64,000 nucleotides of DNA from Liolophura sinensis (taxonomy: Eukaryota; Mollusca; Polyplacophora; Chitonida; Chitonidae), in contig NC_088306.1 in the NCBI RefSeq assembly GCF_032854445.1, forward strand, positions 10,504,193 through 10,568,192, given 5' to 3'. This document shows positions 2,850 to 38,100 of the stretch, in pieces. The notes beneath the pieces are model-generated. The model searched no databases. It was not told where the DNA came from and saw only the letters and a program-made list of their open reading frames with translations. Within the stretch, counting starts at the first letter, position 1, and every line of letters starts with the position of its first letter. The translations under genes and the position numbers were made by a program.

Positions 2850-4382
2850 GTAGATTACCTGTCAGACCAGTCTATTAAAAGAATATATGTATAAAGGTAT
2901 ACATGTGTATACTATGGTTACATGAGTGAGTGAGTGCTTCGGGTTGAACATCGTACTAGTTACATGAGCATTTTGCTGTTAACATTGGCCTACTCTGATT
3001 GAGGGCACAAAGAGCTTGGACCAGAAATTGTTGAGTCTTTCACCAGTGCCATCATGGATTAGAATCCCTGACTCCTGTTGCTGGTTTGATTTTATTAATT
3101 TACTTGATTAGTGTTTTGCGCCACACTCCACAACCTTTCACTTATACAATTATACCAGCACAGTGGTGGGGGGAAACTCATGACGGTCTGCAGGTTACTG
3201 GTTTGGTTGAAGCTGCTTTACTAGTGTCCTAGTGGTTGTCTCTGGCCTATGTGTGGATTGTCAAATATCTAACCTGCATCACTCCTAATGGTTTTTGTGT
3301 TCGTCTTGAATTTGGAGACCTGCGATCAAACCCGGGGTCAGGTCATATCAAAGATTTTAAAAATGGTACTTATTGCTGCGTCATTTGCCAGGTGCTCAAC
3401 ACTGATTTGAATGAGAGGCTAGAGCAAGGAAACAGGGGACACTTCCACTTTCCGTAAAGTACGACGTTAAACCCCAAGCACTCACTCCACTTTCGGTAAA
3501 AGATACTGTCTAGGTTATAGTGTCATAAGGGGATGACATATACAAGAAAAAACGTGAAAAATTGATATGTGGGCCCTGCAGGGCTTATTGTCCCCATGTT
3601 GGTATAATGTGACAGTCTGCATGATTTTTTTCAACTATAAACCTTACCTACCATCCTAAGAGTGAGAACGTTTTGAGAATAGTGTTCAAATGCATGTATG
3701 AATAAGATTTATTTACTTATTTACATTGATTGATGTTTTTTTACTGTATTCAATAATATTTAACTTTATGACGGTGAGCAGCATTATGGCAGAACCCAGC
3801 AGAAACCCATTACCATCTGCAGGTTGCTGTCAGACCTTCAGTATGAGTAAAATAAATAAATGCATAAATTTAATTATTTGAATGGAGGCATAGAATAGAA
3901 TAAACCCTTTGTTACATAAGCATATTAGTATTTCATGTGAAATGCATTTTATGTGTATATTATTAAAAGCTCCTGAAAAAAAGAATAGACATCTTTGTTC
4001 TTCAGTTTTACATGTACTAACATTAAGATGTAATGAGATATAGTCCATTATCTGACCTCTGATCATTTTGCCTGAGTTAGGGTTTTATTCTATCTATTTG
4101 TGTAAATTAAACACCCCTTAGCATCCTGGCTAGAATTTTAATAAAAAAAAATATTAATTGATATTAATTGCAATTTAATAAACGTCACTGGTCTAGAATT
4201 ACTCAAACTGCTGTGTTGCCATCATATTTTAATAACATACAACAGCATTAAAACATTTATAGCATTAGCATTAAGTTGCATTAAATATAAATGGTTTTAA
4301 AATCATAAATAAGAAAGTACAAAACACTTCCTAGTCTCATTCATTGTAGAGGTCAGGCAATGTCAGAAGTGCTTTTGCATTG

Positions 4383-4432
<50 letters not shown>

Positions 4433-7400
4433 CTAATGTTTGCAAATATATATATGTCTTTGATATACACTTGCTTGTTCTTTGTTTGAGTAGATTTTGA
4501 GCCTCTTACCAATGCAATTCAAGGCTAGCTCCTCTCTGACCACTTGTTGCAAGATATGTCAGCAACCTGCGTATGGCCATGTGTTTCCCCCAGGCTCTGC
4601 CTGGTTTCCTCCCACCAAATAATGCTGGCTGCTGTTGTATAAGTGAAATATTCCTGAATTTGGCGTAAAACACCAATCAAAATAAATAAATATAAATGTT
4701 TTTTTTTTATTTATCTTTCCACCATTTGTTGTCAGCACTTTTGATACAGTTTATAGCAATTATCGAGGAAATAATATGTTATCAAGATTCTTCATTTTAC
4801 TGCAGATATTTGACACAGTCACAGCTATTGTTTCTCAACCCTTCCTCAACCTTTTCAACTTTGCTGATCATGATGCGTGCAAGAAGTTACTTCTGGAGGT
4901 ATCAGAAGCGTCCAGTGTTGAGCTGTGTTCATCCCCAGGCACCAATCCCAACCACCCAGCATTCAGTCTCACAGGATCACTGTCCAGTCTCCTCAAGACT
5001 GAGTCTTTTCTTTTCGAGGTACTGTGAATGATTCCCTTTTGTACAAAGTACAGGCATGTCTTATGTCATACCCCAAGCATTGGCATCAGCATTAAATAAC
5101 AGGCTGACTGGGAAAGCAATGTTTAAGTAGATGTTAGATTTGTTTTCTTTATTTGATTGGTGTTTTACGCCGTACTCAGGAATATTCCACTTATTTGATG
5201 GCAGCCAGCATTATGGTTGGAGAAAACCGGGCATAGCCCTTGGGAAACCTAAGACCATGCGCAGGTTGTTGGAAGACCCTTCCGACGTACGACCAGAGAA
5301 GAATGAGGATCGTCTTGGGTTTCCCCCGGGCTCTGCCTGGTTTCCACCCACCATAATGCTGGCAGCCGCCATGTAAGTGAAATATTGTACAGATTAAAAA
5401 ACCAAACAAACAAAGCAAAAATAGAACATTTAATCAGAGAATATCATTTATTTCAGACACTTCAAGTAGTCATCAGTTTGTTAATAATTGCATTAATTTG
5501 AAAATATGAATTCCAAAATTTGCCTCTTTCAGAAATTTCAAGAATTGAACCAAGTGGGGAGAGCAGAAGCAAGTGTTGTCAGTGCTAATGGTAGGTTTCA
5601 GTTTATACAAAAAGTCAGACAGGGCTGAAGTGGCCCTTTGGTGTAGGTCATTGGCTCAAGAACGTGAATTCAGTAACGGTCTGTAGAAATGACTGGATAC
5701 TTCTCTGTTGTGCTTCGCTGGTGCGGATGTATCAGTTGGGAAAAACTGCCTGGCAGCCATAGATTTTTAGCTCACCTGTGCTAAGTAAGGAAAGGAATTT
5801 TGAGAGGGGGATCATAAGGTGTTTGTAATGGTGTCAGTGTCCAGTTTGTTTAAAGGTTTTGGCCAATCATAGGGTTGCAGTGGCCACCCATTGTACACAG
5901 ATAGCCATTTGTTGGTAGCGATATGCATATCAAAGACCAAAGAAATTTTTGACCTCCTACCTCAACATTTCCTCAGCCATCCAGAAGGTTGCAATTGCCA
6001 TCATGGATTGCCAAATACATTTCACGATTTGCATATCAAACACCGCGGTGGGTAAATCTGCACATGAACATGTAATCATGGCAATGATTTACAGCTCCAT
6101 AACCTACTTATGAATATGATAAACTGTCATAGTTTGGCCTTTCTTGTTAATTTCATTCCAAGATCTCAGCACTATGTAATTAGAGAATCGGGGCCTCTGT
6201 GGCTCAGTCGGTTAGCACGCTAGCGCAGCGTAATGACCTAGGAGTCTCTCACCAAAGCGGTCGCTGTGAATTCAAGTCCAGGTCATGCTGGCTTCCTCTC
6301 CGGCTGTACGTGGGAAGGTCTGCCAGCAACCTACGGATGGTCGTGGGTTTTCCACGGGCTTTGCCCGGTTTCCTCCCACCATAATGCTGGCCGCCGTCGT
6401 ATAAGTGAAATATTCTGGAGTACGGCGTAAAACACCAATCAAATAAATAAATAAATACTAATTAGAGAATCCGATTTTGGTTTAGATGTCAATATTCGCA
6501 CGTATCACATGACTTGAACATTATGCAGTTTTATGAACCGCTCAGTCAGGTGAGCTACTGATATTTCCTGAATGCCTTGATACCTTTTGTAATAAATTTC
6601 TTTTGTACATGATGTCATAATGGTGAAGATTGGCAAGGATAGTTGTGTTAAATGTTTCAGGGTAATTCCAGTGTTGAACATGCTCAAAGAGGGCCAGGAA
6701 TCTAGTTTAGTTAAAGAATGAAAGATGTGTTTGACCGTTGTTCACGCTCTTTACATGTAGCTGTTGATTTGACTTAGAGCACTGCTACATGTAGATGAGT
6801 TGGATGTGTGATTGGTTATTGCTTTTATTTGAAAGGTTTACAAGTATTGGCAGAGGTCACAGAAGAAACCTTAAATGCTCCAAGAGTGATGTCTGAACCA
6901 TTAGAGTCGTCTGTCCTTCCAACCAGGGTATATCAGCTTTCTGATGCAGCTTGTGCAGAGTTGAAGAGCTCTTCAGGAGAGAGCACTCAAGTTGATCAGG
7001 ATTCGGGAATTACCACTGCTATTTTAAACCAGAGTTATCAAGGTAAACGTCCTGCTAGGCCGGAAAGCAAGGATTTAGTTGCAATTTCTCAAACTCTGTC
7101 CTCGAACAAAGAATCTAAGAGCAGTAAGCAAGCGTCTAGCAATGTATCAGAATGTAAAATTAGCCCGGAAAATAGGAAATATGAGACTTTATGCGCCTTG
7201 TTGGGTTTTGGAAAGCCACAGAACAAATTGGTTCATGAAGAACATGGGGCGGCAGCTCTCCGAGCTAAAGCCACGGAGTCGAAGGCAGAGGCCTGTCATG
7301 AAATTGAAGGAGAGTTAAAGATTGAAAGAGTAACAGCTAAACATCCTAATGTAGTGCCATCAATCATTAGTAAAGTCCATTCTGTGTTGGAAAAGTGCCG

Positions 7401-9579
7401 TGGCGAAAAACGCAAGCGAAATAGTAACGTCATAGTTGCTGATTCTGAAAGGAAAAGGTCTTTGAGAATTAAACAGAGGGCATCCGGTTCAAGCACTAAT
7501 GTAAAAACATGTGGTGCACAGACGCAAAGGGTTACATTGTCTGCTCAGAAATATGTACAAAAAAGAACTCTGAACAAAAGGAATCATACAGATGACAGAA
7601 GTGAAGCTCCACGCAGAAGCCTGCGAAATAAGAGGAGTGGAGCAGCTGTGGAAAACACCCAGCCAACAAGCACCCGAAAAAGTGTGAAACAAACAAATGC
7701 TGAACCAGCGAGCACCAGAAATAAGGATTCCTTTTCCAATTCTGAATGTGAGACTTCCGCTCATCAAGAACCGGAAGTCCAGGATCATCAACTAAGAATA
7801 GACAGTGCATTTAAGCTAAGTACAGGATCTGTCAAATCGCAGACAGATGCACACACAAGTGAAGCATCTCAAGTGGAATGCCGGCCAGAAAATGAAGAGG
7901 AGAATCGTCCAGAGAAAGGTATGAAAGGTATGTGGTCCAGTGAAGCCGCAGAAACCAGTGGCTTAAGTGTAACGTCTGCTGTGGTTTCTGGGAATGATGA
8001 CCTTTTAAAGGTTCCAGTGGAAACTCGTGCAGCGGATGAAGAAGTAGTTGCTCCAGGTTTAAGTGACTTAAGGCAGCCAGAGTCTTCTGTTGAAGAAAGC
8101 AGTAGCCAAAATGTAGAAAATGCAAATTCTGTCACAGACTCATTAGAGGATCTTTCTAATAAACGCCCAATACATACGGGTCAGATCAAGGGGAATAAAA
8201 GTGACTCCAACAATCAGAAACTTGCGGCTCTAACGAATGCGTTTCATTATTCAAATCCAGTTCTCAGGGAAATCGATATGTTTCGAGAGGATAACGGTAT
8301 TGAACTCTTGCAAATCGTAGAATCAAACAACAAAACTGTCATCACGAAACAAAGCGGACATTGTGCGATATGTGGTCAGGAATTCGAAAGTTGTCAGTCC
8401 TTTGCAGCTCATATTATGTACAGTCACTTTAAGTTCAAATGTCAGAAATGTCTGTCTGTGTTCTCCAAGAGAGAAGCTCTCGAGGATCATGTGCGTGGCG
8501 AAAACATCTGTCAGGGACCTCGGCTGAAAAGCCGACGTAGGAAAAGGAGCGACGCTCGTTCCGAGTCGACTCCATCGAAGAGGAAAGATTTACGGTGTGG
8601 GGATTGTGATCAGGTATTCGGTCACCGTTCTCGACTTGACAAACACCAGTTAGAGGCTCACAATCCAATCGTCGTTTGTTCTGTTTGCAATGAAACGTTC
8701 CAGTCCTTCGCACGTCTGCGAGTGCACATTGATCTCATCCACACGGAACAGGAGCACATATGCGATGTCTGCGGGAAAAGTTTCAAAGCTTTGGCAAATA
8801 TGGTCGGTCACAGAAAACGCCATAACGCTGAAAGACGCTTCGTGTGTGGGAATTGTGGTAAAGCGTTTAAAGACAAGTGTGCCTGGAAGGAGCATTTAGA
8901 AACGCACAAGCCCAAAGAGGAGAGGACTTGCCGATTTATTTGCCCTACCTGTGGTAAACGCTTCCAGTCAAAGCGGGTGTGTTTGGACCATCAAAACATC
9001 CATACTGGGACCAGGCCCTATGAATGCGAGCTGTGTCGCTTGAGATTCGCAAGTTTAGGCATTATGAAAAGTCACATGAAGATGAAACATAGTGATAATC
9101 GCCCTTACCGCTGTGACTTATGTCCCAAAGCCTTCAAGGAAAAACGCGCACTACAAGCGCATACTGTCACGCACACAGGCATAAGCGAACATAAATGTCT
9201 TCACTGTGGTCGCCCCTTTGGAACTGCGACAATTTGCAAGACGCACATGCTCAAATGCAAGAAGTCTAAAGGCGTCACCCCGATGCCCGGAACCTTTGAG
9301 CCCACCAAATCGTTTGAGACGAGTGAAACTTCAGTCGTGGATACGTCAGCTGTGGAAGTGCATCTAGGTGTGGAGGAAAGCCAGAGCGCGGTGGAGACAA
9401 TGGAAATGACGTTTGACGATCAGCAGATTACAGAGTTACAAGTGACCACAGAAGTGGTGGAGGACCCTGTGGTGTTCATGTGCAGTGCTTGCAATGAAAC
9501 CTTCGATAACATGGAATCCGCCGCTACTCACATCAGCCTGTGTCAAGTGGAGGGGAAAGAGGAGAACGCATTGTCTTAA
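2781..9579 (+). CDS. C2H2 zinc-finger protein, 4 coding exons, about 1027 aa
   Basis: Probable nuclear DNA-binding protein with eleven C2H2-type fingers. Coding exons are 2781-2849, 4806-5018, 5533-5590 and 6836-9579; they join in frame (69+213+58+2744 = 3084 nt) with GT-AG introns. The ATG at 2781 is chosen because an in-frame TAA sits at 2769 and the exon has a strong acceptor at 2716 after a T13 tract, giving a short 5' UTR. Residues 1-113 (exons 1-3) form a non-finger N-terminal part with few cysteines, so it is not a ZAD, and it does not look like BTB, KRAB or SCAN. About residues 115-620 are low-complexity, acidic and Ser-rich, with two basic patches (RKRSLRIKQR near 319 and PRRSLRNKRS near 372). 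Fingers 1-10 occupy about 623-923 and finger 11 lies near 996-1018. Inter-finger linkers are mostly not the TGEKP type. I cannot name an orthologue. The exon 2 and 3 joins are inferred from splice sites and phase only. Confidence 0.85.
3438..3490 (+). repeat. SINE family B tail fragment
   Basis: Short remnant with the diagnostic block GTACGACGTTAAACCCCAAG followed by CACTCACT. It lies in intron 1 of the zinc-finger gene. Confidence 0.5.
4384..4432. repeat. (AT)n microsatellite
   Basis: About 24 uninterrupted AT units in intron 1 of the zinc-finger gene. Confidence 0.95.
4500..4693 (+). mobile_element. SINE family A, 5'-truncated
   Basis: Begins within the box B side of the head (CTCTTACCAATGC) and keeps the body and the tail CACCAATCAAAATAAATAA. 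It ends about 110 bp before exon 2 of the zinc-finger gene. Confidence 0.75.
4806..5018 (+). CDS. Zinc-finger gene coding exon 2
   Basis: Seventy-one codons, phase 0 at both ends, with acceptor TTTTACTGCAG and donor GAG|gtactg. It reads IFDTVTAIVSQPFLNLFNF onward: hydrophobic, helix-prone and free of stops, unlike the surrounding intron. No domain name can be assigned; it may be a protein-interaction region. Confidence 0.75.
5150..5393. mobile_element. Fold-back pair of family A SINE tails
   Basis: Left arm (about 5150-5300) is a family A tail read on the - strand. Right arm (about 5308-5393) is the same tail read on the + strand. The junction lies near 5300-5310. The arms about 5184-5252 and 5308-5385 are reverse complements with some mismatches and could form a long hairpin. 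It sits in intron 2 of the zinc-finger gene and accounts for the overlapping open frames on both strands here. Confidence 0.8.
5533..5590 (+). CDS. Zinc-finger gene coding exon 3
   Basis: Fifty-eight nt: acceptor CTCTTTCAG, KFQELNQVGRAEASVVSAN plus one base, donor G|gtaggt. It leaves phase 1, which exactly matches the acceptor TTGAAAG at 6835 so that exon 4 opens with G-L-Q-V-L. The phase match is the main support. Confidence 0.75.
6190..6462 (+). mobile_element. SINE family A, full length
   Basis: Head GGGGCCTCTGTGGCTCAG with box A, box B-like GAATTCAAGTCC, complete body, and tail CAATCAAATAAATAAATAAA. It lies in intron 3 of the zinc-finger gene. Confidence 0.9.
6836..9579 (+). CDS. Zinc-finger gene coding exon 4 (main exon)
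   Basis: About 915 codons in one exon, ending with TAA at 9577-9579. The open frame runs back to an ATG at 6808, but 6808-6835 is better read as intron (branch and polypyrimidine region plus acceptor TTGAAAG), so that ATG is unlikely to be the start. Finger cores in order: CAIC, CQKC, CGDC, CSVC, CDVC, CGNC, CPTC, CELC, CDLC, CLHC and CSAC. Finger 2 ends in H...C after a long spacer, and fingers 10 and 11 end in C rather than H. One huge exon carrying all fingers is common for C2H2 genes. Confidence 0.93.
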
Positions 9580-17152: not shown

Positions 17153-20100
17153 CTGTCAACAAAAACAGATTGACTGGTTGATTGATGGTTTGTCAACAGA
17201 TTTATTCACCATATGTAAAGGCAGGATAAAATTCAGCGTCATTCCAGAGTCAGATTTCTGTAAAAAACCTGAGAAAGGAGCAAATACACACACACTTGCT
17301 GATTACTCGATTCTCAACTTATACTTATTTATTTATTTCACTGGTGTTTTACGCCTTACTCAAGAATATTTCACTTATACGACGGCGGCCTGCATTATGG
17401 TACTAGGACCCCAACCATCCGCACACTGCTGGCTGACCACTACAGCTGGAGAGGAGGCCAGCATGAGCTGGACTTGAACTCAAAGCGACGACATTGGTGG
17501 GTGCTGATGTGCTGGTCACGGCGGTCCCTCTGACTTAATAAAGTCACTCACTGACATGTGGAACACCATGGAAAGAAGATGCCAGTACAGAAGTGGTTTA
17601 CTCTATGACTGTGACAGCCTCTAATGATATTATTTGTCTATAAATGACTTCCTTGTTTACTTCGTATATACAATAATGTTTATGGACAGAGGTTAACTGC
17701 GCATAAGTAAGTAGAGGGCATCACAACACCACTTCGGATTCATGACAAACCCCTGTACTCAGAGACAAAGCCAAGGTAGCAAGAGCTGGATTTGAACCCA
17801 CAACCCTGACTAGCCGAAGACCTGTGTTCTGCAGAATGATATCCCAGGTTACATTAATTTATCTGACAGGTGTTTCACACCACAATGAAAATCATATTTG
17901 TTTTGTATTTCTTATTAACAGCTCTATTTTATGCATACTTTCAATGCTTAGGAATATCATCAAGTGACATGATCAATGAATGTACCAGTACTTGACATGA
18001 AGGACCAGCTCAGTGCCCACAACAATTCGGCCTCTCCCCCTAGCAAAGCTGTTTTGACAGTTATTGCTGCTGACCTCACCATAGCATTCTACTTTAATTT
18101 TTCAAACTGACCGCTGGGGCCTTACGAAAACTGTAGTTTAAAGCAATTTTCATGCCCCAAGAAAAATGGCAAGAAGCATTATTTATACTTTCATGTCCCC
18201 CCACATCCTTAACTCCACATTAAAAATAAAAAACCAAGCGTTTAATGTATCCTATAAAACCGCAGGTGAACTAACAAGAGCTTTATACAAGCCTGCAACT
18301 CTTACAACTGCTTAATGGTCTCAGGAATACATTTGTACAAAAACAACCAGCTTACATTGTGAGTCCTGAGGAAGTCGTCTTCTGGGATCAGCGATTCCTC
18401 CGTCTTCTGTTTCTTGGAGGCAGGCTCCTCCTCCATGGGAGGTGGGGGCGGCCGGTTAGTCTTTGGTGGCGGACCCGGGTGGGGCATGGGGCCCCGCATG
18501 GGTGGGAAACCATGGCCCTGGTGCATGGAAGGGTGCATGGGGGGCTGGGCCAAACCTGAAGAGGAACACATCAGAGGCCTGAATAAAACATGCTTCGCCG
18601 CATTTGATAAGATCATCACAACATAAAATTAAGATTCAGCTTTTCAGCATTAAGGTGACCTTTATCTGATAATGTTGTAATTATAAATGAGGTCTGAGGT
18701 TATGGTGACAGGCCACAAAAACAATCTATATATCATTTAAGTTCAACAAACATTCCACTAGTGCACAATGAACAAACTTCCAACAACCATTCCACTAGTG
18801 CACACTGAGCAAACTTCCAACAACCATTCCACTGGTGCACACTGAGCAAACTACCAACAACCATTCCACTAGTGTACACTGAGCAAACTTCCAACAACCA
18901 TTCCACTGGTGCACACTGAGCAAACTACCAACAACCATTCCACTAGTGTACACTGAACAAACTTCCAACAACCATTCCACTAGTGTACACTGAACAAACT
19001 TCCAACAACCATTCCACTGGTGCACACTGAGCAAACTTCTAACAACCATTCCACTAGTGTACACTGAGCAAACTTCCAACAACCATTCCACTGGTGCACA
19101 CTGAGCAAACTAACAACAACCATTCCACTAGTGTACACTGAACAAACTTCTAACAACCATTCCACTAGTGTACACTGAACAAACTTCCAACAACTATTCC
19201 ACTGGTGCACACTGAGCAAACTACCAACAACCATTCCACTAGTGTACACTGAACAAACTTCTAACAACCATTCCACTAGTGCACACTGAGCAAACTTCTA
19301 ACAACCATTCCAATAGTGCACACTGAGCAAACTTCTAACAACCATTCCACTAGTGCACACTGAGCAAACTTCTATCAACCATTCCACTAGTGTACACTGA
19401 GCAAACTTCTAACAACCATTCCAATAGTGCACACTGAGCAAACTTCTAACAACCATTCCACTAGTGCACACTGAGCAAACTTCTAACAACCATTCCACTA
19501 GTGCACACTGAGCAAACTTCTAACAACCATTCCACTAGTGTACACTGAGCAAACTTCTAACAACCATTCCAATAGTGCACACTGAGCAAACTTCTAACAA
19601 CCATTCCAATAGTGCACACTGAGCAAACTTCCAACAACCATTCCACTAGTGCACACTGAGCAAACTTCTAACAACCATTCCACTGGTGCACACTGAGCAA
19701 ACTTCTAACAACCATTCCACTAGTGTACACTGAGCAAACTTCTAACAACCATTCCACTAGTGCACACTGAACAAACTTCTAACAACCATTCCACTGGTGC
19801 ACACTGAGCAAACTTCTAACAACCACTCCACTAGTGCACACTGAGCAAACTTTCAACAACCAATCCACTGGTGCACACTGAGCAAACTTCCAACAACCAA
19901 TCCATTGGTGCACACTGAGCAAACTTCCAACAAACATTCCACTGGTGCACACTGAGCAAACTTCCAACAAACATTCCACTGGTGCACACTGAGCAAACTT
20001 CCAACAACCATTCCACTAGTGCACACTGAGCAAACTTCCAACAACCATTCCACTAGTGCACACTGAGCAAACTTCTAACAACCATTCCACTGGTGCACAC

Positions 20101-23100
20101 TGAGCAAACTTCTAACAAACATTCCACTGGTGCACACTGAGCAAACTTCCAACAACCATTCCACTAGTGCACACTGAGCAAACTTCCAACAACCATTCCA
20201 CTGGTGCACACTGAGCAAACTTCTAACAACCATTCCACTGGTGCACACTGAGCAAACTTCTAACAACCATTCCACTAGTGCACACTGAGCAAACTTCTAA
20301 CAACCATTCCACTGGTGCACACTGAGCAAACTTCTAACAACCATTCCACTAGTGCACACACAGCAAACTTCTAACAACCATTCCACTGGTGCACACTGAG
20401 CAAACTTCTAACAACCATTCCACTAGTGCGCACTGAGCAAACTTCTAATAACCACTCCACTGGTTAACACTGATCAAACTTCTAACAACCATTCCACTGG
20501 TGCACACTGAGCAAACCTCTAACAACCATTCCACTGGTGCACACTGTGCAAGCTTCTGGCAGACTAGAGAATCACCCAGGGTTTTGAAAGCACCCTTGCT
20601 CCACAACCTCTGACGAGCTATTCAATTACCTAAACTTTCTCCGTGAATAGAACTTGTACATTTTGTATGTCCTGTGTATAGGGTTCATCAGCCGTACATG
20701 TAAAAGCTGATAATACATGGATATTCTAGTATTCTGTTTAAATATTGAATAACAATGAAACCTTCCTTTGTCATAGTTACTGGTACAATATTTTTGGTAT
20801 TGCGTAAAAATCAATAGTGCTGCACTATAATTCATTCCCACCCCACCACCCCTCCAAAAAAAAAAATCAACAAACTGGACTTACCAAGAGCGAACGGCTG
20901 CATTGGAGGACGTGGAGGCATCATCATGACTGGCTGGGTCATCATTGGGGGGCGGGGCATAGGAGGAGGTGCCATGGGGGTGGGCATAGGGGCAGGCATG
21001 GGGGGCGGAGGTTTGGGGGGACGCAGAGACTCAGAAGTCATAGGGGGAGGGGGTTTAGGAGCCTGGAGAAGAGGTTGGTTGGGTTTAGCCGGCCCAATCT
21101 TCTCCTTTTCCTCATCAGGCCTAAACAGAGAAGAGAAGAGTTTTTCACTTATATGATGGCAGTCAGGATTATGCCTCAAAGAAACTGGAATGCCTCGTGT
21201 AAGCCACAGCCCTTTGGCAAGTACATGTACCCTATAAATTCCCCAACCATTTTGCCCATGAACGAGCAACTTTCAGGGCAATGCATGCACATTTTTAATT
21301 TGTTATTGGAGACAAATCCACATTGGTTGGATTGGTCAGTTTCAGAACTCCACAAAAAGTATAATTTTTCCGATCTACATAAAATAATGCCTTCAGAATA
21401 TGCTTGAATAAACACCTTGAAAACATGTGCAAAGGTTGAAGAATTACAGAACTTCAGCATTTGAGTGACACTTTTCTATCCCAGAATTCTTAGACAAACT
21501 AGAAGAAAGTTGATGAAATATGCTTCAAAATAACATTCCTGTTTTAAAACCGGAGCTAAAGCACAGAGGTCCAGAGAGAACAGAGCTGTGCATATGAATA
21601 CAGGAACTACTTACACAAGACCTTTGACCTTATGAATGACAGCAATCTGGTCCTCAATAGAAATGTTCTCTCTGGCTTTTTGCGTGACTTTTTCCATGGA
21701 GGCTGTGTGTCCATCCCAAACCACCTTGATCTCTCTCTTTTCTTCCTCACCGATCTAAATCAGAAATAGGAAACAAGAGTAAATTCATTTATTTACCTGT
21801 ATTTATCTGATTGTTGATTACCATTATACTGTATTCACCTATAGGAGCACAGGACAATGGTCAGCTAGAGGAAACTTGAGTGGCCAGGGTACATCACTGA
21901 CCTTTAGCAAATTACTGAACACTTCAATTTCCAAAAGTGACGCACATTATGTATGTATGTATGTTTATTGGATAGTTGTTTAACACCAAACTCATTTTGG
22001 AAAAAACAAATTTAGGAAAAATTCATCATGCAAAATCTCAACTGCTCACCTTTTTACCAATTTGAGTTTCCTCGGCACCAGATCCAAAGATATCTGTACG
22101 TCTTTCTGCGAGGTGCTTCAGCGATTCTTCGATGGCTGAGCCAGGCGCATACACCTCTTCCTGGTCGCGTTTCTCGTGGATGGAACGGTTGCGCTCCTCG
22201 ATCCATTTGGGATCCAGCAGCCCTGGAAATCAGTGTTCGGGACAATTAGACTTCACATTCCCTTTCGTTGTGAGAACTGTTAAGCTAAAATGAGCTTTCT
22301 TTGTTTCAAGTTCATTGATTTATTAAGGAATTTTTCACTTATATGGCGGAATATATTTTATCTGGAAATCGAACAATAGGGAAACCATTGTCCTTCACCA
22401 GGTGACGGACAAACTTAATGACGTACAGTTGAAGATGGGCTCCGTGCTGCGGCTTCATTGGTTCATTGCAAAATGTCTTCTATCCAGAACCTATAGTCTG
22501 CTACATGTATGGCAGCAGGAGCTCTTTATTACTATAGCTTTATTTAATCACTTGAGTTATAAGTTACTTATTTATTTGACTGATTTTATGCCGTACTCAA
22601 AAACACAGGTATTTCACTGCATACAAGATGGTGTCCAGTATCATGGTGGGATGAAACCTGGAGAAGTCCTGAGGGAAAACACGATCATCCCCAGGTTGCT
22701 GCCAGACCTTTCCAGGTATGGCTGGAGACGAAGGCAGCAGAAGCTAGACTTGAACTCACAACAATCCCCTTAATGAAAGGCTTCCGAGTCACAGTGCTGT
22801 TTTAGCACACTGACCACCTGGACACAGAGGCCACCACTTGATATTTAATCAAGAATGTTTCACAAAATAGCAATTTATTTTCTTGATTGGTGTTTTACGT
22901 TATACTCAAGAATATTTCACTTAGATGACTGCAACCAGCTTTACAGTGGGAAGAAACTGGGCTAAAAACCACGAGCATCTGCAGGCTGCTGGCAGACCTT
23001 CCCACGACAAAATGGCAATTCAGTTTATGGATAAAATTACAACTCATCAAACAAACATGAAAAAAGCTGGCAAAAACCTCATGGGTCAAGCCTTGCTTGT

Positions 23101-26100
23101 CTTTAGGTAAGGCAGTTTGGCCGGAAATGACCTCCAGCTACAAGCCTTGCTTGTCCTTAGGTCAGGCAGTTTGGTCAGAAATGACCTCTAGCTACAAGCC
23201 TTGCTTGTCTTTAGGTCAGGCAGTTTGTTCAGAAATGACCTCTAGCTACAAGCCTTGCTTGTCTTTAGGTCAGGCAGTTTGGTCAGAAATGACCTCCAGC
23301 TACATGCCCTGCTTGTCTTTAGGTCAGGCAGTTTGGTCAGAAATGACCTTCAGCTACAAGCCTTGCTTTAGGTCAGGCAGTTTGGTCAGAAATGACCTCC
23401 AGCTACAATCCTTGCTTCAGGTCAGGCAGTTTGGCCAAAAATGACCTTCAGCTACAAGCCTCGCTTTGGGTCAGGCAGTTTGGCCAGAAATGACCTCCAG
23501 CTACGAGCCTTGCTTGTCTTTAGGCCAGGCAGTTTGGCCAGAAATGACCTCCAGCTACAAGCCTTCATTTAGGCCAGGCAGTTTGGCCAGAAATGACCTC
23601 CAGATACAAGTCGTGCTTGTCTTTAGGTCAGGCAGTTAGGCCAGAAATGATCCCCAGCTACAAGCCTTGCTTTAGGTCAGGCAGTTTGGCCAGAAATAAC
23701 CTCCAGCTGCATGCCTTGCTTTAGGTCAGGCAGTTTGGCCAAAAATGACCCCCAGCTACAAGCCGCGCTTTTGGTCAGGCAGTTTGGCCAGAAATGACCT
23801 CCAGCTACAAGCCTTGCTTTAGGTCAGGCAGTTTGGCCAGAAATGACCCCCAGCTACAAGCCTTGCTTTAGGTCAGGCAGTTTGGCCAGAAATGACCTCC
23901 AGCTGCATGCCTTGCTTTAGGTCAGGCAGTTTGGCCAAAAATGACCCCCCAGCTACAAGCCGTGCTTTTGGTCAGGCAGTTTGGCCAGAAATGACCTCCA
24001 GCTATAAGCCTTGCTTTAGGCCAGACAGTTTGGCCAGAAATGACCCCAGCTGCATGCCTTGCTTTAGGTCAGGCAGTTTGGCCAGAAATGACCTCCAGCT
24101 ACATGAACTATCTCATTTCTTACCAATCCTCATGTGTTCATGCCTTGCTTGTCTTTAGGCCAGACAGTTTGGCCAGAAATGACCTCCAGCTACATGAACA
24201 ACTATCTCATTTCTTACCAATCCTCATGTGCTCATGCCTTGCTTGTCTTTAGGTCAGACAGTTTGGCCAGAAATGACCTCCAGCTACATGAACAACTATC
24301 TCATTTCTTACCAATCCTCATGTGCTCATGCACTTTGTGAGCTGGAATCTTCTCTCCTGTGATAGGTGATATCATATACTGATCTGAAGTGGGCTCTGGG
24401 GCAACCGGACGCGCTGAAAACAAAGTAACAAACACATACGTTATACTGGGACAATAACAAAACAGAGGTGTGAAGTGTAGGATCATTATAATAATTATAT
24501 TTAATATATTTTAATTTTAAATTTAATTAAATTAATATTTAAATTAACTGGGCAAATCCTACTCTTGTGTATCACGGTAAACAAGGTCTGTAAACAAGAA
24601 AAATGGAAAGATATATAAAACAAATAATATGTAGATCAGGGCTTAACACTATCAAAGTACACAACTCATACATGACCATTCAAATTCCTGACACTGTTCA
24701 TCCAGTGTCTTAGCACAGCAAGGTCATCTTCATGTAAATCTCTGATTTATATCTGTATTTTTTATGATTTATTTACTCCCTTATACAACAGCAGCCAGCA
24801 ATAGCATTATGGTGGGTAGAAACCCGACAGGTTACTGGCAGATTTTCCCATGTACAATCTGTATTTTATTCCTGTTTATTTATTTATTTGATTGGTGTTT
24901 TACGCTGTATGCAAGAATATTTAACTTGTGCAACGGCAGCCAGCATTATTGTGGGAGGAAACTAGGCAGAGCCTGGGTGAAACCCACAACCATCCGTAGG
25001 TTGCTGCAGACCTTTCCACTTACGGCCGCACTTGAACTCACAGCGACCGCATTGTTGAGAGGCTCTTGGGTCATTACACTGCATCAGCGCGCTAACCAAC
25101 TGAGCCATGGAGGCCCCTTATTCCTGTTTAACACGGTACTATAAAATTCTGCACTAGCTAGGGCCACCATCTGGACAAACCAGATTTATTGATAGATCTG
25201 ATCGAGGTATATTTGATATACAGCACATGAAGATCACGTATATTGTGACAGGAGCTGGAAATTTTTATTTAATCATTTGATAGGTGTTTTACGAGCTACT
25301 CAAGAATATTTCACTTATTCAACAGCGGCCAGCATTATGGTCGGAGGAAACCGGGCAGAGTCCTTAGGGAAACCCACAACTTTACGCAGGTTTCTGGCAA
25401 CCTTCCCATGGATGAACAGAACTTTTGCTACACAAGAACAGAGGATATTGCCATCAGCCTCTTACACTGCTGAACTCTTACATGCTTTGTCATCATACTG
25501 GTGTTCTTGAGGTACAGTATTTCAAAAGTTGAGGTTTTTTATTTTTTTTTTAAAGCAAAGCATTTTGCTTGATTCTGACTGATTCATTCATTACATGATA
25601 CCAATAATGATTCATTTGTGTTACTAAAGATGCAAGCATAAAGCTGTGCAAATTATTTCTCCATACCCTAGTTCACTCAGAATAATTCAAACTTTTGGTT
25701 GCACAGATGGACGAAGAATTAAGGTAGTCCGTCAGCCTTACCTTTAGGGTTGTAATCCTTCCTTACTACCACCTGATCAGGGGTAGGGGGAAGTGGAGGA
25801 GGGTTGGGCAGGTCAGACGGGGGTGGGGGCGGGGGTTTGGGGCGATCCTGCTTCTCTATCTCCATCTCATCATCAGAGTCTTCTTCCATGTCCTGAAAAT
25901 GACATCACACAGATTACAGGTTATGATAACATGTTGACAATTCAATAAGCACAGTATTGATTGCTCTTCTTCAATATCTATGAGTAAAATAAAATAATAG
26001 TTAAATAAAAATAATAATAATAATAATAAATATAATAATAAAATTTAATAAAAATAAAATTTCTCTCTGCACTACAACTAATTCGAATGTGATTTACCTG

Positions 26101-29100
26101 AGTAATAAATAGGATTAATATTGGAGCTGATATGGACACATCATATATTTGCACACCCAAGAAATAGGGACTCCTCCATACCACCCAGTGTTCATTAATA
26201 AGGAAGATGGCTTGTTGGAGAAGTTTGTTGGTTTAGTCTTTCATATCTATTCATTTTTTTTATTTAATTGGTCTTTTACCCTGTACTCAAGAATATGACG
26301 GCAGCCAGCATTATTTAGGACACTGACAAAAATATAAAAAGACCATATTCACAGTCAAATAAATTCTTTAGACATGCATCACATCTTTATTTAGAACGCT
26401 GACAAAAATATAAAAAGACCATATTTGCAAATAAGTTTTCACACTCTTTCATCTGATTTTGGCATCATTTTTATGTTTTGTTCTCCTTTAATACCAGATA
26501 CTACCAAACAAAGTAAGCTGTAATTCGGATGTCGGGTTTTCTTTCAAAACATTTGGATACGGCGCTGTGATCAACTTACCTGGACTTGGGTGTTATCCAT
26601 GACCTGTGGGCAGGTTGCATTGGGGGGTGAGGCTGATTGGGCCTGTCTGGCTGCGGTGCAGGCTGCTGGGGAATGGTGGGACCTGCATCCTTGGGGCGTC
26701 GATTCTCAGATACCTCGCCTTCATCTTCGTCATCAGATTCCACTTCCATCTCCACGGCATCATCAAACTGGAATTATAGACACTGTCTACTGAAGAGTGG
26801 GATATTTAATGTCACTGAATTATTTTCATTTTCCTTAATGTTCAACACAGCAGCATTATTACAGAGGATATCGCACAGTGGAGGTGGAATACCACAAACA
26901 TGCTTGCCAGTGAGAGATGGAAATAACAACCCACAACACATGAAGTTATTATTATTTTTTTTTTATTTCATTGGTGTTTTACGCTGTACTCGAGAATATT
27001 TCACCTCTACGACAGTGGCCAGCATTATGGTGGGAGGAAACCGGGCAGAGCCCGGGAAAAACCACGACCATCCGCAGGTTGCTTTCAGACGGCAGGAGAG
27101 GAAGCCCGCAATAGCTGGACTTGAACTCACAGCGACCGCATTGGTGAGAGACTCCTGAGTCATTACGCTGCGCTGGCGCACTAACCAAGTGAGCCACATG
27201 AAGAGTTGATTGGGCTATCATTACCAACTTTCATGAGAAAAATATTTACATTTATTTATTTATTTGGTGTTTTACTCAAGAAGATTTCACTTACACGACA
27301 GCGGCCAGCATTATGGTGGGAGGAAACCCGACAGAGCCCGCAGGAAACCCACGACCATCCGCAGGTGGGTGGAAGACCTTAACATGTATGGCCAGAGAGG
27401 GAGCCAGCATGAGCGGGACTTGAACTCACAGTGACCGAAAATAGTTATATATACACTATTCAACTTTCACTGTGCAATATTCCGTACATTATTTTAGCAT
27501 AATTTAAACAATTTTGTATTTAAACAAGAATAGTCAATGTTTTCAGCTGTAGGCCTTCCCAGACTATACAGTATGACATTGCAAATAATCTCTTGTATGA
27601 CTTTGCGTCTTGTTTTGTGATATAGGAATGTAATAATTCCCACTGAGCTCGGATTAGAGCATCATAATACAAAATGTTTCTTCACTGATGTCACAGCGTT
27701 CGGGTGGGAAATATCAAAATGCAATAAAAAAAAAAGTGAAACATGTAACTGATGAGTGAAATAACACTTTTATCAGTGAAAGAAATCCTGACATTTCAAT
27801 GGTGTTCAACACAACTTTTCACTAAGGTAAGTTGCAAGAGTAAATTAGTAACCACTGCCAATTACTACATAAATATTTTGACCACGTTGATTTAAAGCTG
27901 TTGACAAACCTATGAGACTATAAATTTGGCCCTGAGAGCTCACTGTTCTGTACCACTGAATTTCACGTAGTTTTTAAAATAATGGTTTAAGGGCTGTTTC
28001 CCTCCAGGCACTGTGGTCCATTAAATCAGTCCTGTTTTAATTATAGATTTGTCAATGGCAGTCATTTCTTAGTTCCCAATGCCTATCATCTACTTACATT
28101 TGTTCAAAGATTTTGCATACTGACTTATTTATTTTTATTTGATTGGTGTTTAACGCCTAACTCAAGAATATTTCACTTACACGACGGCCAGCATTATGGT
28201 GGGAGGAAACCGGGCTGGGAAACCCACGACCATCCGCAGGTTGCTAATAGACCTTCCCAAGTACAGCTGGAGAGGAAACCAGCTTGACCTGGATTTAAAC
28301 TCACAGGAACCGCATTGGTGAGATGCTCCTCATTGCACTGTGCTGGCGTGCTAACCTCCTCATCCACTGAGGCCCCGTGATGGTTTTGGTATCTACATGT
28401 AAAACCATCACGATAATCCAGGTTGCCGAGAGACCTTCCCACTTACGGCCAGAAAGGAAGCCAGCATGAGCTGGACTTGAACTCACAGCGACCGCATTGG
28501 TGAGATGCTCCTGGGTCATTGAACCGTGCTGGAGTGCTAACCTCCTCAGCCACTGAGGCCCTGTGATGGTTTTGGTATCTTCATGTACATGTTGACACAC
28601 ACAAGTGCACTGTGCATTATATACACAATAGGGGTCAGAGCTCATACTCTGCTTCTGACTAACCAAACAGAACAAGCACGAGGCAGGGCAAAATAGCATA
28701 CGACTTACGTCTCCTTTGTCAAAGCGTTCTTGCTGAAGGACACGAACACCTACTTCCTCAGCAGACGTAGGAGGCGGAAGATGACCTGTTGGAAGACGAA
28801 GCAGAAAAACTCACGCACATGTACAGCTTAAAAATCACATCAATTCACATCTTGCATTTCCTATGTCTGATTTTCAAACGAAAACACAACATACTGTAAT
28901 TCTCATAATTTTTAGGACAGATATTGGTAGCATTGAAAGCCAGAAAAGAAAATACATTTCTCTCACAGTTTTTCAGAGTTTAAGTGAACACATGTATATG
29001 TTGTTCACTGGATTTAGCACAGTGTTAACCAAGTGGGAAAATAAACACTGTGATCGTGTGTTCCTGTTATAAATAAAGTGTATACTGGCTAAAAATAGCA

Positions 29101-32100
29101 GACAAGATGTCCCAAATTAGAAGAGTTCTCCATTTTTCTAACTTTACATCACAATTTACAATGTTCACATATGAACTTAAGCCAATAAATATTAAAATCT
29201 TTTCAATATAAGCATATATTCATCTATGGGAAACCGTCCTTATATATACAGTGTATCTATGGGTAACCTTCCTTATACATACAGTGTATCTATGCGTAAC
29301 CTTCCTTATACATACAGTGTATCTATGGGTAACCTTCCTTACACATACAGTGTATCTAAGGGTAACCTTCCTTATACATACAGTGTATGCACGAATGCAC
29401 TTCTCCCTCATTACATCCTTCTAACCATGATAACAGGTTATCCTAATTCCTCAAGCTTTTTGTATATGAAAGAGCAACTTTCAGCGCAATTTATGCACAT
29501 TTTTAATTTGAGTTTGGAGACAAAACTACATTGGTTGCATTGGCCAATTTCAAGGCTTCCCCAAAAGTAGAATTTTATCAGTCAAGACAGAACAATGCCT
29601 TCAGAATATGCTTGAATAAAACACCTTGCAAGTATGCAAAAAAAGGTTTACAGTATTATATTAAACACTGCCACAAATGCATCCCCCCCCCCCCAAGTTT
29701 TTCACAAAGCTGTTTTATTACATACACGATGCATCAGTACATACCTTCAAATGTTTCAGAGAAGAAAACCTTCAGATAGTGTATCTTATTTACACTCAAA
29801 GGCTTGGTTATCAGGTAATTATTCAATGGAAGCCATGATATTAGGCCGACATTGGCTATCATTTAACATCCTGAAACATACCACACTTACTCCTATATAA
29901 ATACACAAATCTATGCATACCTTGTTCATTGGGTTGAAAGTCCACTGTTTCAACAACAACAAAGTCATGCCAATCAATCTGGGCGTAGGCAACTGAAAAT
30001 AATGAGAGCAGGAAATAGAAACACTTCATTCAGGCTTACAAAAAAAAAAACTCAACAGCTAATGCAAACGTGATGATGTGATAAGATAAAGATTTGACAT
30101 CTTTTTAAAATCTGTAATAAAACTCCAGACTTTTAGCACATCTGTACCAACTCTTACAACCTGGCAATCTTATAATTTGACTTTATCCAATGTCCGTCCA
30201 AATAAAAAATAAGTTTAAACCACTACAAAGGAATGAAATCATTCTCTACCTCTCTCTCGCTCTTGAGCCTCTTCTTCCTTCCTTTTCTCCCTGTCCTGGT
30301 GTTTGGCCCATTCCACTCTGTAGTTCACCTCATCTAAAACCTACACAAATCAGATCGATCCAAAATGTGTTCAGGGGAGTCAGGTACATGTGCACTTAGA
30401 GACAAGTGAACAACAATCACAAAAGTCTCAATTAATTTCAAGTTCCATAATACTGCGCTAACATTAAAAAGATACAAAAAGATCACAGGAAAAGTATATT
30501 CTCGAACTATCCAGAAGTGAATAGTGAGTTCTTCATTAACACATGAAAAAAAAAAAAAACATAACTGCTTCTGTAAAAATGGTTTCCAGTGTGTACATGA
30601 AATGAGAATGAGGTTTACAGCCCAAAGTAAGTAATCAATATCAAAATTTAAATGCTCATGAAGTAAAATTACATGACAGCCACCATTGGCAGAGGGCCAC
30701 AACTCTGTAACAATCTGGGTAAATCAAATGGATTCGGGTCCCATACTCAAATACAGCAAACAGCTGACTTGAGCCGTCACGTTTAAGATTGAAAACTGGG
30801 AGCTTTGGTTAAGGGTACAAAATAAGGCATCAACTGTGACATGATCAACAACATTGGATTTTGGAAAATACATGGACTGCGAGCTTTGGTTAATGGTTCA
30901 AAATAAGGCATTAACTGAGACATGATCAACTTCATAGGATTTTGGAAAATACATGGACTGCGAGCTTTGGTTAATGGTTCAAAATAAGGCATCAACGATG
31001 ACATGATCAACAACATAGGATTTTGGAAAATACATGGACTGCGAGCTTTGGTTAATGGTTCAAAATAAGACATCAACTGAGACATGATCAACAACATAGG
31101 ATTTTGGCACATGGACTGCGAGCTTTGGTTAATGGTTCAAAATAAGGCATCAACTGAGACATGATCAACAACATAGGACTTTGGCACATGGATTGCGAGC
31201 TTTGGTTAATGGTTCAAAATAAGGCATCAACTGAGACACGATCAACTTCATAGGACTTTGGCACATGGACTGCGAGCTTTGGTTAATGGTTCAAAATAAG
31301 GCATTAACTGAGACATGATCAACACCATAGGACTTTGGCACATGGACTGCAAGCTTTGGTTAATGGTTCAAAATAAGCCATCAACTGAGACATGATCAAC
31401 AACATAGGATTTTGGAAAATACATGGACTGCGAGCTTTGGTTAATGGTTCAAAATAAGACATCAACTGAGACATGATCAACAAGATAGGACTTTGGCACA
31501 TGGACTGCAAGCTTTGGTTAATGGTTCAAAATAAGACATCAACTGAGACATGATCAACAACATAGGACTTTCTCATAAACATGGATGGGAGCTTTGGTTA
31601 ATGGTTCAAAATAAGTCAGCGACTGAGACATGATCAACAAAATGGGACTGTCTCATATTCATGGACTGCGAGCTTTGATTAATGGTTCAAAATAAGACAT
31701 CAACTGAGACATGATCAACAACATGGGACTTTGGTATATACATGGACTGGGAGCTTTGGTTAATGGTTCAAAATATGATTAACAACATAGGACTTTCGAA
31801 TAGACACGCACTGGTTATTTCTGGGATTATAATTTTATTACAAACTCGTGTGAAGACCCTGTTTACAACATAACACACAAAACATTATTTCTGACTAATT
31901 TATTTGAATCTAGATGAAATGCTTCAAATGATTTCTCCCAGGTCATGACTCTTGAAGATTTCACAGGTAGTGTTAAAGTTTCAAGCTGCACACTTTAATG
32001 TATAACAGCCGTTTTTTCGAAAGGGCCAATGACAAAACCATTCAACTTCAGTAATGGAAGTCACAGTCTTATTAATATTAGGAATCACAATTTCTGGATA

Positions 32101-35100: not shown

Positions 35101-38100
35101 GGTGTTTTACGCCATACTCAAGACTATTTCACTTATACAACGGCGGCCAGCATTATGGTGGGAGGAAACCAGGCAGCGCCCGGGGGAAACCCACGACCAT
35201 CCGCAGACTGCTGGCAGACCTTCCCACGTATGGCCAGAGAGGAAGCCAGCATGAGCTGGACTTGAACTCACAGCGACTGTATTGGTGAGAGGCTCCTGGG
35301 TCATTACCCTGAGCCACGGCGGCCCCTACTATATATATATTCCTTTCACACTCACCTTGGGAGCTGGTGGTTCCTGGCCTGAAATTTCAAAAAATAACAG
35401 AATTAGATTTGACACATAGGAGTTAAGCACATAAACAAAGTTGGGAGAGAAATTTGATAGGTAAATTGTCCAATTCATATCAGCATATTTAACAGAAAGT
35501 TGGAACAGAATCAGTATTCTAAAACTTTACATCTCAGTATTCATAGTCTAATAATTAATTTTATTTCATAAAATGTTTAATTGATTGTGCAGTTCTTGTA
35601 AAGCAGAATTTCTGAGGTGAGGTGACCAGTGATGTAAATAAAGCCAAAAAAGTTCACAACAATTAAAAACGTCATGTTACCTTTCCCTTCCTTGAATTCT
35701 TTGACCTTATGTTGGTAATACGCATGGTACGGATCAGCAGGGTTCAGGAAGTTGAACTTCGGGTTGTTCACTTCATTCTGGCGAATTCTGCTCTCGAACT
35801 CTGGGCCATTTCTGGCAACAAAGCTGGCAGTCTTGTCAACAATATCTTTAGCATGAATTAAAGATTCATAACTCAGTGCAGCTTGTCTGATGAAAAACAT
35901 GGTCCATGTGAATGTACAAAAAGTTTGTTGATGATGAACATGAACGCTTGTTACTGTTGATGATACATGAACACTTGTTACTGCTGATGACATATGAACA
36001 TTTGTTATTGCTCATGTTACATGAACACTTGTTAGTGTTAATGTTACATGAAAGCTTATTACTGTTGATGATACATGAATGCTTGGTATTGTTGATGATA
36101 CATGAACACTTGTTATTGTTGATGATACATGAACACATGTAGTTAACAATAACATGTTATTCTTATCCAGATTCAGATGTACTTTGGTTCATATTAATTA
36201 GGATTAGTCCTAGTACACTGACCAGAAACTGTAGACCCACACTGAGAAACGTTTGGATATGCTGTAATGATAATCATGTCTGCTTAACTCCTGATAGGAG
36301 ACCACAGCATAAGTACATGTATTAGTGAACGGATTGCAGTGCGGCTCCACATACCTCTATGTGGTCAAATTAGGGGAACGATAACATTAGCGGAATGATA
36401 ACATTAGGGGAATGATAACAATAGTGGAATGATAACATTAGGGGATTGATAACAATAAGGGAATGATAACATTAGGGGATCAATAACATTAGGGGAATAA
36501 TAACATTAGGAGATCGATATCATTAGGTGAATGTTAACATCAGGAGATCGATAACGTTAGGCAGTTTGCAATGAAAAAATATTTGACTGAAAACAAGGTT
36601 TTCACACACTACATAGCATATACTGCAGCATGGTAGTTTTAAAATCAGCTTGATTGGTCAGTGATGCTCTGAATGGGAGATATTTTTTGAACTACTGTAG
36701 AAGGGTTTTTCTATTAAAAGTGACCTATAAAGTTGTAAAATTCAGAAATGCAGCAACTACAGAATTGCATGCAGTAAGCATATTAGGAGTGAGTGAGAGC
36801 TTAGGGTGTAACGTCGTACTTAACAATTTTTCAGTCATATGACGACGAAGGAGTGCTTAGGGTGCATGTCATGTGCCTCCTCGTTGCAAGACAGATTTCC
36901 ACCACTCTTTTATCTAGTACTGTTTCAGTGAGATGACTTACCCAAGGCAAGTAAACCTTCCCACTCTAATCATTATAATGATTCAGGTCAACCAGTCATT
37001 GCAATATCCCCTTTATGCTAAACGCCCAGCAAGGAAACTTCCTTTTTTAAGGTCTTGGGTGCGATGCGATCCAGAATTGACCCTGTATCTACCGCTCGCA
37101 AAGCAGACGCTCTAGCAGCTGAGCCATCAGGGCTGGTAAGCATATTCATTGACATGCATGTATGATTAGGGAATTCAGATCAAGATTTTAGCTGATCTGG
37201 ATTAGGCATCCTGGCCAATTTAACTGGTTACCTCTGATTGCATGTGGCGATGAGAAGGGCAGATGTTACATCATGCATTTGACCGGCTGGAGGTATGTAC
37301 AGTGTTTTCTCACACCAACACTCATGCTGTGCATGACTTGGTCTCTGACCAAAGGTTGAGCAGCCATAATTATAACATTTGCTAACAATTCTCCATCTAA
37401 AAGCTGAGTGTACTCCGATTAGTTCAATGGCAATGCTTGTTCATATCAGATACATTTTGTACCTGGTGCATCAACCAACCAGGTAAATATCAGAATCAAA
37501 AATAAAGAGGAAAGACATTTAGTCTACTGAATTATATTCCGACTAGTCTATCTAGATGACTAAGTGTGTTATTTTTAAAATACTGACATTCACAGTAACA
37601 CTGAATCCATCCCTTCCTCTGAAAAACCATGGTGGGATTTTAAATTCACATCTCCTTCCCACTCATGGCAACCACACCTACCTCCTCATTTTTTATGTAA
37701 CTTTGCGGTGGAATCTCAAATACTATCTTCTTACTTTACCACCCTCACTGATGAAATCAATTAACTTGCTGCCTTGTGGTCACATTAACTACTAGAACTT
37801 CAGCGGTACCAAACACCACACTGTAAACAGCCATTTTGAAATGTCATGGGACCTAACTGTAGGTCTGAAATGTAACTGAGTGTTGGCACTGAAATCTTCC
37901 AAAAAGTTATTCTATTTCCATTGTCGTCTGTAAGCACCCCTTCAATCGTCTTTATGCAACCCACTAAGGCATAAAAAAAGACTTGTATTTTTACTTCGCG
38001 CAGTTAAGTTTGGGTGCCATCAGCACGGACATCTTTGAGATCTGTTCCATCAAGTTAGCGTTCGTAAATCTGCAATGAGTTTTTGAAAGGCAGGGATGGA

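Follow-up and report, generated by a model that had tools for sequence, protein, structure and literature searches.

Copies of an exon-intron junction within a minisatellite of the Liolophura sinensis SF3A1 gene, and related arrays at other exon edges

A stretch of 64,000 nucleotides (nt) from the genome of the chiton Liolophura sinensis (contig NC_088306.1, positions 10,504,193 to 10,568,192; hereafter the window) contains the gene for the splicing factor SF3A1, one exon of which has its donor splice site present in three copies. The gene lies on the minus strand, with a start codon at 38566 and a last codon at 15188, as located by tblastn with human SF3A1, and its exon borders were set by protein similarity together with splice consensus. 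The exon concerned, 24413-24312, matches residues 399-431 of human SF3A1 with 33 codons (E 1.4e-9) and gives a match to the Pfam family PRP21_like_P (E 1.1e-5) which, at 25.8 bits, is below the gathering cut-off of 28.2 bits. Once 24312 is spliced to an acceptor at 22222, the gene model has a frame of 754 codons without internal stops, and the spliced product reads ...HMRIG/LLDPKW... across this junction (a slash marks the splice junction in all sequences given here). The SF3A1 family search matched one place in the assembly. An earlier note on this DNA had called the exon number 12, which is correct in a 19-exon model with 11 exons upstream; it becomes exon 13 if one of the upstream exons is divided by a 110-nt intron (26713-26604), which gives 20 exons with 12 upstream. 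This upstream exon (window 26580-26767) has a frame that is off by one base unless the 110-nt GT-AG intron is removed. The features of the exon and of the intron that follows it are:

24312..24413, minus strand: SF3A1 exon of 102 nt, phase 1-1, with a protein match, a Pfam match and an open gene model
22223..24311, minus strand: SF3A1 intron of 2,089 nt, acceptor TTTCCAG/GG at 22223/22222
24291..24330, minus strand: junction segment copy 1, 19 exonic and 21 intronic nt, real donor ATTG/GTAAGA at 24312/24311
24237..24290, minus strand: 54-bp minisatellite unit between junction copies 1 and 2
24197..24236, minus strand: junction segment copy 2, decoy donor at 24218/24217, matching the real one over 40 nt
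24143..24196, minus strand: 54-bp minisatellite unit between junction copies 2 and 3
24106..24142, minus strand: junction segment copy 3, decoy donor at 24124/24123, with GAG>GAA and a 3-bp deletion
23083..24105, minus strand: 49/54-bp minisatellite, roughly 20 units that occupy the 5' part of the SF3A1 intron
24327..24331, minus strand: GCATG in the exon, the microhomology that borders the duplicated unit on its upstream side
24053..24057, minus strand: GCATG ahead of the next minisatellite unit, the microhomology partner
24301..24303, minus strand: in-frame TGA that every decoy-spliced transcript would reach, ten bases beyond the real junction

The donor at 24312/24311 recurs at 24218/24217 and 24124/24123, at a spacing of exactly 94 bp, as the earlier note had read it. 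Tandem Repeats Finder reports the same period, with 3.0 copies and 95% matches over 24058-24331, and this array overlaps the exon-intron junction, taking in 20 exonic nt and the donor. The 94-bp unit is compound: it consists of 40 nt of junction, made up of 19 exonic nt (CATGAGCACATGAGGATTG) and 21 intronic nt (gtaagaaatgagatagttgtt), followed by one 54-bp minisatellite unit. The 49/54-bp minisatellite begins 21 nt inside the intron and extends to about 23083, and the two extra junction copies sit between the exon and this plain array. With three copies of such a compound unit, the proposal that a repeat array had captured and multiplied an exon-intron junction is borne out; the compound nature of the unit and its membership in a longer 49/54-bp array go beyond what had been described. 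The 94-bp unit contains donor-side sequence of the existing intron, the acceptor of the gene model lying outside it; a search by eye of the unit for a pseudo-exon acceptor found no clear polypyrimidine-AG run.

The real donor and the first copy are identical without a break over 20 exonic and 57 intronic nt. With the second copy, identity spans 13 exonic and 18 intronic nt, which are the same in all three donors, and ends at a GAG>GAA change upstream and a 3-bp deletion downstream. The change is synonymous in the frame of the exon, as had been claimed for one of the copies, and proves to belong to the second decoy. At the level of the whole unit, a single one of the 94 positions separates copies 1 and 2, and copy 3 has, in addition to the two differences just named, the 49-bp form of the minisatellite unit. 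The repetition of the junction is real and far beyond chance. For each of the 38 boundaries in the first gene model, two per exon for 19 exons and with the outer ends at the start and stop codons counted, a 38-mer was compared with the same strand of the window. Only the donor 24312/24311 had a second copy (38/38 and 36/38 matches); the best second match of the other 37 was at most 26/38. The 5 nt GCATG are common to the exon (AAGTGCATGAGC) and the start of a plain minisatellite unit (CAAGGCATGCAGC), and are the likely point of a first exchange between exon and minisatellite.

The site is at the edge of a 1-kb minisatellite, where copy number can err in an assembly, and the three copies might in principle have come from reads mis-assembled in the repeat. 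We regard such an artefact as extremely unlikely, given that the copies carry distinct differences, that arrays of like structure occur at five more, independent places, and that a DNA search (in which repeat counts are lower bounds) with the junction stretch matched one place only in the 609-Mb assembly. A plain array query of 361 bp likewise matched one place only in this search.

With an identical 12-nt donor context, the three donors have the same predicted pairing with U1 (-8.0 kcal/mol each), and the description of the copies as near-perfect decoys stands. Among the 110 GT sites of the 2,089-nt intron, only three, namely the real donor and both decoys, reach this level. RNA folding gives no separation of the three, as the order of their accessibility varies with the folding window chosen. 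The extra copies could aid the real donor, in that additional U1 binding downstream would strengthen exon definition without cleavage there; no U1 site elsewhere in the intron is as strong as the three copies, and exon skipping was corrected by engineered U1 particles bound downstream of a donor (PMC4822034). The real donor already ranks above the middle of the gene, as 7th strongest of the 18 donors scored, so help is not obviously needed, and we consider such a helper function quite unlikely.

Use of a decoy would add 94 or 188 nt. The earlier note had expected a shift of frame, and the arithmetic is right, since neither number is a multiple of 3 (94 mod 3 = 1, so that the unit is not in frame); the shift is not the main consequence, since the TGA at 24303-24301 precedes it. 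Past the real junction, decoy transcripts read GGT AAG AAA TGA (...RIGKK*), and the predicted product stops after 416 of 754 residues. Nonsense-mediated decay (NMD) acts on transcripts in which a stop codon lies more than 50-55 nt before an exon junction. As the end of the TGA at 24301 lies 83 nt before the nearer decoy junction at 24218, decay is the predicted and likely fate of decoy-spliced mRNA. NMD-coupled splicing of splicing-factor genes is well known, and regulated use of the decoys could make this site a poison-splicing switch, in which an NMD target tunes SF3A1, perhaps by feedback through its role as a component of the U2 small nuclear ribonucleoprotein. Three donors of equal strength, a guaranteed in-frame stop and the distance of that stop, greater than the roughly 55 nt that poison splicing calls for, all fit such a switch. 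Against it, the SF3A1 copies look recent and differ in the same manner as the rest of the array; further evidence on this possibility comes from other genes.

A control survey covered 127 coding matches (126 distinct, as L015 and L016 share the same core): 30 RRM loci (the best of 146) and 30 DEAD loci (the best of 49), which together make 59 distinct loci, 47 of 50 PF00118 (CCT) matches, including four CCT pieces first chosen for their long open frames, and 20 SF3A1 exons. The units examined were domain matches, not curated exons, with edges tested to 60 nt beyond the match, and matches containing stop codons were retained. Excluded were L058, a 30-nt 80% hit outside the match; two PF00118 matches on C5 in one 622-codon frame; a PF00118 match split between pieces (C6:51811174); and the rows L024 and L037, treated as a coding repeat. 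These last two (C3:21652909-21653460) are stretches of RRM within a single open frame; over 276 nt they agree at 92%, and they look like a recent domain duplication. Exon-edge arrays were found in 6 of the 127 matches, in SF3A1 (1/20), in a DDX27-like and a vasa/DDX3-like gene (DEAD, 2/30), and twice in CCT3 and once in CCT5 (CCT, 3/47), with none in the 30 RRM matches.

In the gene taken to be DDX27-like (PDB matches give DEAD-box only; L072, C5:2924001-2934000), an array at 4273-6423 (C5:2928273-2930423) has 33 head-to-tail units of about 65 bp. Each unit is formed by 61 nt of exon end and GTGA, and the opening GTA of the next unit completes GTGAGTA; G/GTGA is intact in 31 of the 33. As a side observation, many of these units end in CTCTCTACAG/GTGA, which resembles a recursive-splicing (ratchet) site; the SF3A1 unit has TTG before GT. 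The array of the vasa/DDX3-like gene (L073, C23:54001-64000; 5698-6314) repeats an acceptor instead: its 47-bp unit, present in about 13 copies, contains the acceptor (such as TTTTGTTCCCACAG) and the first exonic bases; by eye, the AG is lost in 5 of 14 acceptor copies. The gene assigned to CCT3, for which subunit gamma is the best PDB and NCBIfam match, carries a first array (L083, L112 and L102; C8:53403890-53406510, the array itself at C8:53405163-53406017) of 66-bp and then 88-bp units, each with about 42 exonic nt and the donor CAG/GTGTGT, in 10 intact copies including the real one. The first six extra units are open in frame, and decoy use there would add repeats of 22 residues. A second CCT3 array has 60-bp units of exon end and donor, with GT in 5 of the 6 donor-like copies listed. 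The CCT5 array (C1, below 72038430) has 109-bp units with about 89 exonic nt and GTGAGT, GACAAG/GTGAGT being present four times including the real site. Kept apart from the six is L092 (CCT3), a 41-bp array in which the repeated acceptor is accompanied by no more than a few exonic nt; it was first flagged by overlap with a domain match, but that match extends into the intron. At L075, an array of three 33-bp units (1620-1722) upstream of a CCT exon has the unit end TTTCCACAG and is possibly acceptor-bearing.

Arrays of period 20 or more that cross the edge of a coding match were compared with random placement, in which each array was slid over its locus. The observed and expected numbers were 0 and 1.21 for RRM (19 arrays), 2 and 1.29 for DEAD (20 arrays) and 3 and 2.73 for CCT (13 arrays; L092 is one of the 3), in total 5 observed against 5.2 expected. 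In this small test, edge crossing thus occurs at about the rate of random seeding, which favours neutral capture; because observed and expected agree, neither a pull of arrays to splice sites nor strong counter-selection against them is needed. Attraction of arrays to splice sites was accordingly left unsupported by the same small comparison. Of the window as a whole, 11.6% consists of tandem repeats with a period of at least 20. Within the SF3A1 gene, uniform seeding of 8 arrays predicts 0.34 founder units that straddle an exon border, and one is seen; for this list of 8, the overlap between the 49-bp and 94-bp rows was settled by keeping the 49-bp one, and arrays below 2 copies were left out.

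The earlier note had attached meaning to the fact that the gene itself encodes a splicing factor. That helicase and chaperonin genes also carry such arrays, and that edge crossing is near the random rate in a small test, takes this meaning away. The same two observations speak against a poison-splicing switch, as does the CCT3 array, where the open frame through the first six extra units means that a stop is not a common feature; we consider such a switch very unlikely. Nor is SF3A1 a singular case, as had been thought, given the five further exon-edge arrays in the same genome.

The nearest precedent is human IFI6 (6-16), in which two downstream repeat units act as splice donors, giving three mRNA species (PMC4526556). 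The likeness to SF3A1 is a minisatellite at an exon-intron junction with units that carry donors, and the SF3A1 decoys are, by predicted pairing, as strong as the real donor. The SF3A1 unit differs in its length of 94 bp (a 54-bp minisatellite unit plus the 40-nt junction) and in that decoy use meets a stop, whereas the IFI6 unit is short, at 12 bp, and in frame. Such in-frame units are absent from SF3A1 and are found among the first units of the CCT3 66-bp array. In human segmentally duplicated genes, internal tandem repeats at exon-intron boundaries were found with altered splicing, with 162 alignments that have boundary repeats and 27 intron modifications after manual inspection (PMC2812944). 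Minisatellite expansion across exon-intron boundaries is common to both cases; the hosts there are young duplicated primate genes, and here the conserved SF3A1, CCT3, CCT5 and DEAD-box helicases. That study is credited to De Grassi and Ciccarelli (2009). Introns can also be gained by tandem duplication of an exon segment bearing AGGT, for example in the potato gene for RNA-dependent RNA polymerase (PMC4974935); there too, tandem duplication copies splice-site sequence, but a new intron is made, whereas in SF3A1 the intron was already there and received copies of its own donor. Tandem alternative donors (GYNGYN motifs and other tandem alternative splice sites, TASS) share with SF3A1 a series of donors at a single exon end; their spacing stays within about a dozen nt, and the SF3A1 donors are 94 nt apart and come from a repeat array. 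Judged by titles and the openings of abstracts, searches of open-licence papers for minisatellites with splice sites or junctions gave no title about SF3A1 or about any genome in which such arrays are numerous. What is new here is the compound unit, the conserved housekeeping hosts and the recurrence in one genome; minisatellite-borne donors were already known.

We consider it probable that a compound minisatellite grew over the SF3A1 exon-intron junction by accident and was tolerated, and exon-edge arrays are most likely tolerated by-products of a repeat-rich genome. In such a genome, minisatellites would be seeded anywhere in genes by short homologies, and an exon edge would be copied into the intron where the founder spans a junction or, as in SF3A1, where exon and intron array undergo exchange. 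A minisatellite unit may have been linked to the exon by slippage or unequal exchange mediated by the microhomology, and a second exchange, guided by 94 bp of homology, may then have given a further copy (copies 1 and 2 differ at a single position, copy 3 at more). In splicing, the outermost donor would mostly be used, because it yields the short exon of 102 nt and the only mRNA free of an early stop; occasional decoy use would add 94 or 188 nt, bring in the TGA and lead to nonsense-mediated decay. The gene would thus survive because the outermost site is still used. The loss of AG in 5 of the 14 vasa/DDX3-like acceptors is as expected for copies without upkeep; among the 6 donor-like copies listed for the 60-bp CCT3 array, 1 lacks the GT.

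Several points weigh against this explanation. The random-placement test is small (5 arrays) and was made on domain matches rather than true exon borders; among its 5 arrays, that of L092 overlaps the exon by no more than a few nt, and a true case, L091, went unscored as its array boundary was called differently. The one straddling founder in SF3A1 exceeds the expected 0.34, but numbers this small allow no judgement of the excess. Intact donors are found in 31 of 33 units of the DDX27-like array, where variation at the donor positions is below the mean, with 2 changes over 7 positions compared with a mean of 1.9 per position (30 units); this low variation could be due to homogenisation or to constraint. 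Finally, that the outermost donor is preferred is itself an assumption.

The same arrays could also be read as a recurrent class of exon-edge minisatellites whose ladders are copy-number-variable splicing elements. Ladders of 3 to 33 near-identical donors, or of a dozen acceptors, in conserved housekeeping genes would then be such elements; individuals would differ, according to their number of units, in the share of transcripts that are extended or bound for NMD, and in-frame units, as in CCT3, would let proteins gain repeated segments. This we hold to be rather unlikely, tolerated accident being the reading that we prefer.

The window contains further minisatellites at 18745-20557 (37 bp x 49), 30795-31775 (81 bp x 12), 35926-36140 (27 bp x 8) and 49380-50689 (77 bp x 17). 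Two dispersed-repeat copies, 82% identical, lie at 24875-24971 and 25264-25360 in the intron upstream of the 24413-24312 exon, and are presumably, from their look, of the kind of short interspersed nuclear elements. An open frame of 926 codons at 6799-9579, from the list of open reading frames, has the appearance of a multi-C2H2 zinc-finger protein. Rfam gave 0 hits in the window at gathering thresholds, and exact scans with a 32-base repeat pattern found 0 matches in both viral_contigs and genome_contigs, sets that may lack records of this genome or of its close neighbours.

To our knowledge, the choice of the spliceosome among equal splice sites has mostly been studied with engineered duplications. 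The genes described here offer a natural dosage series of donors that includes the real site, with 3 in SF3A1, 4 in CCT5, 10 in CCT3 and 31 intact ones in the DDX27-like gene, and an acceptor counterpart of about a dozen copies in the vasa/DDX3-like gene, beside an exon that requires correct splicing. They also point to a route by which minisatellites may eat into exon edges in this genome, apparently tolerated at roughly the random rate.
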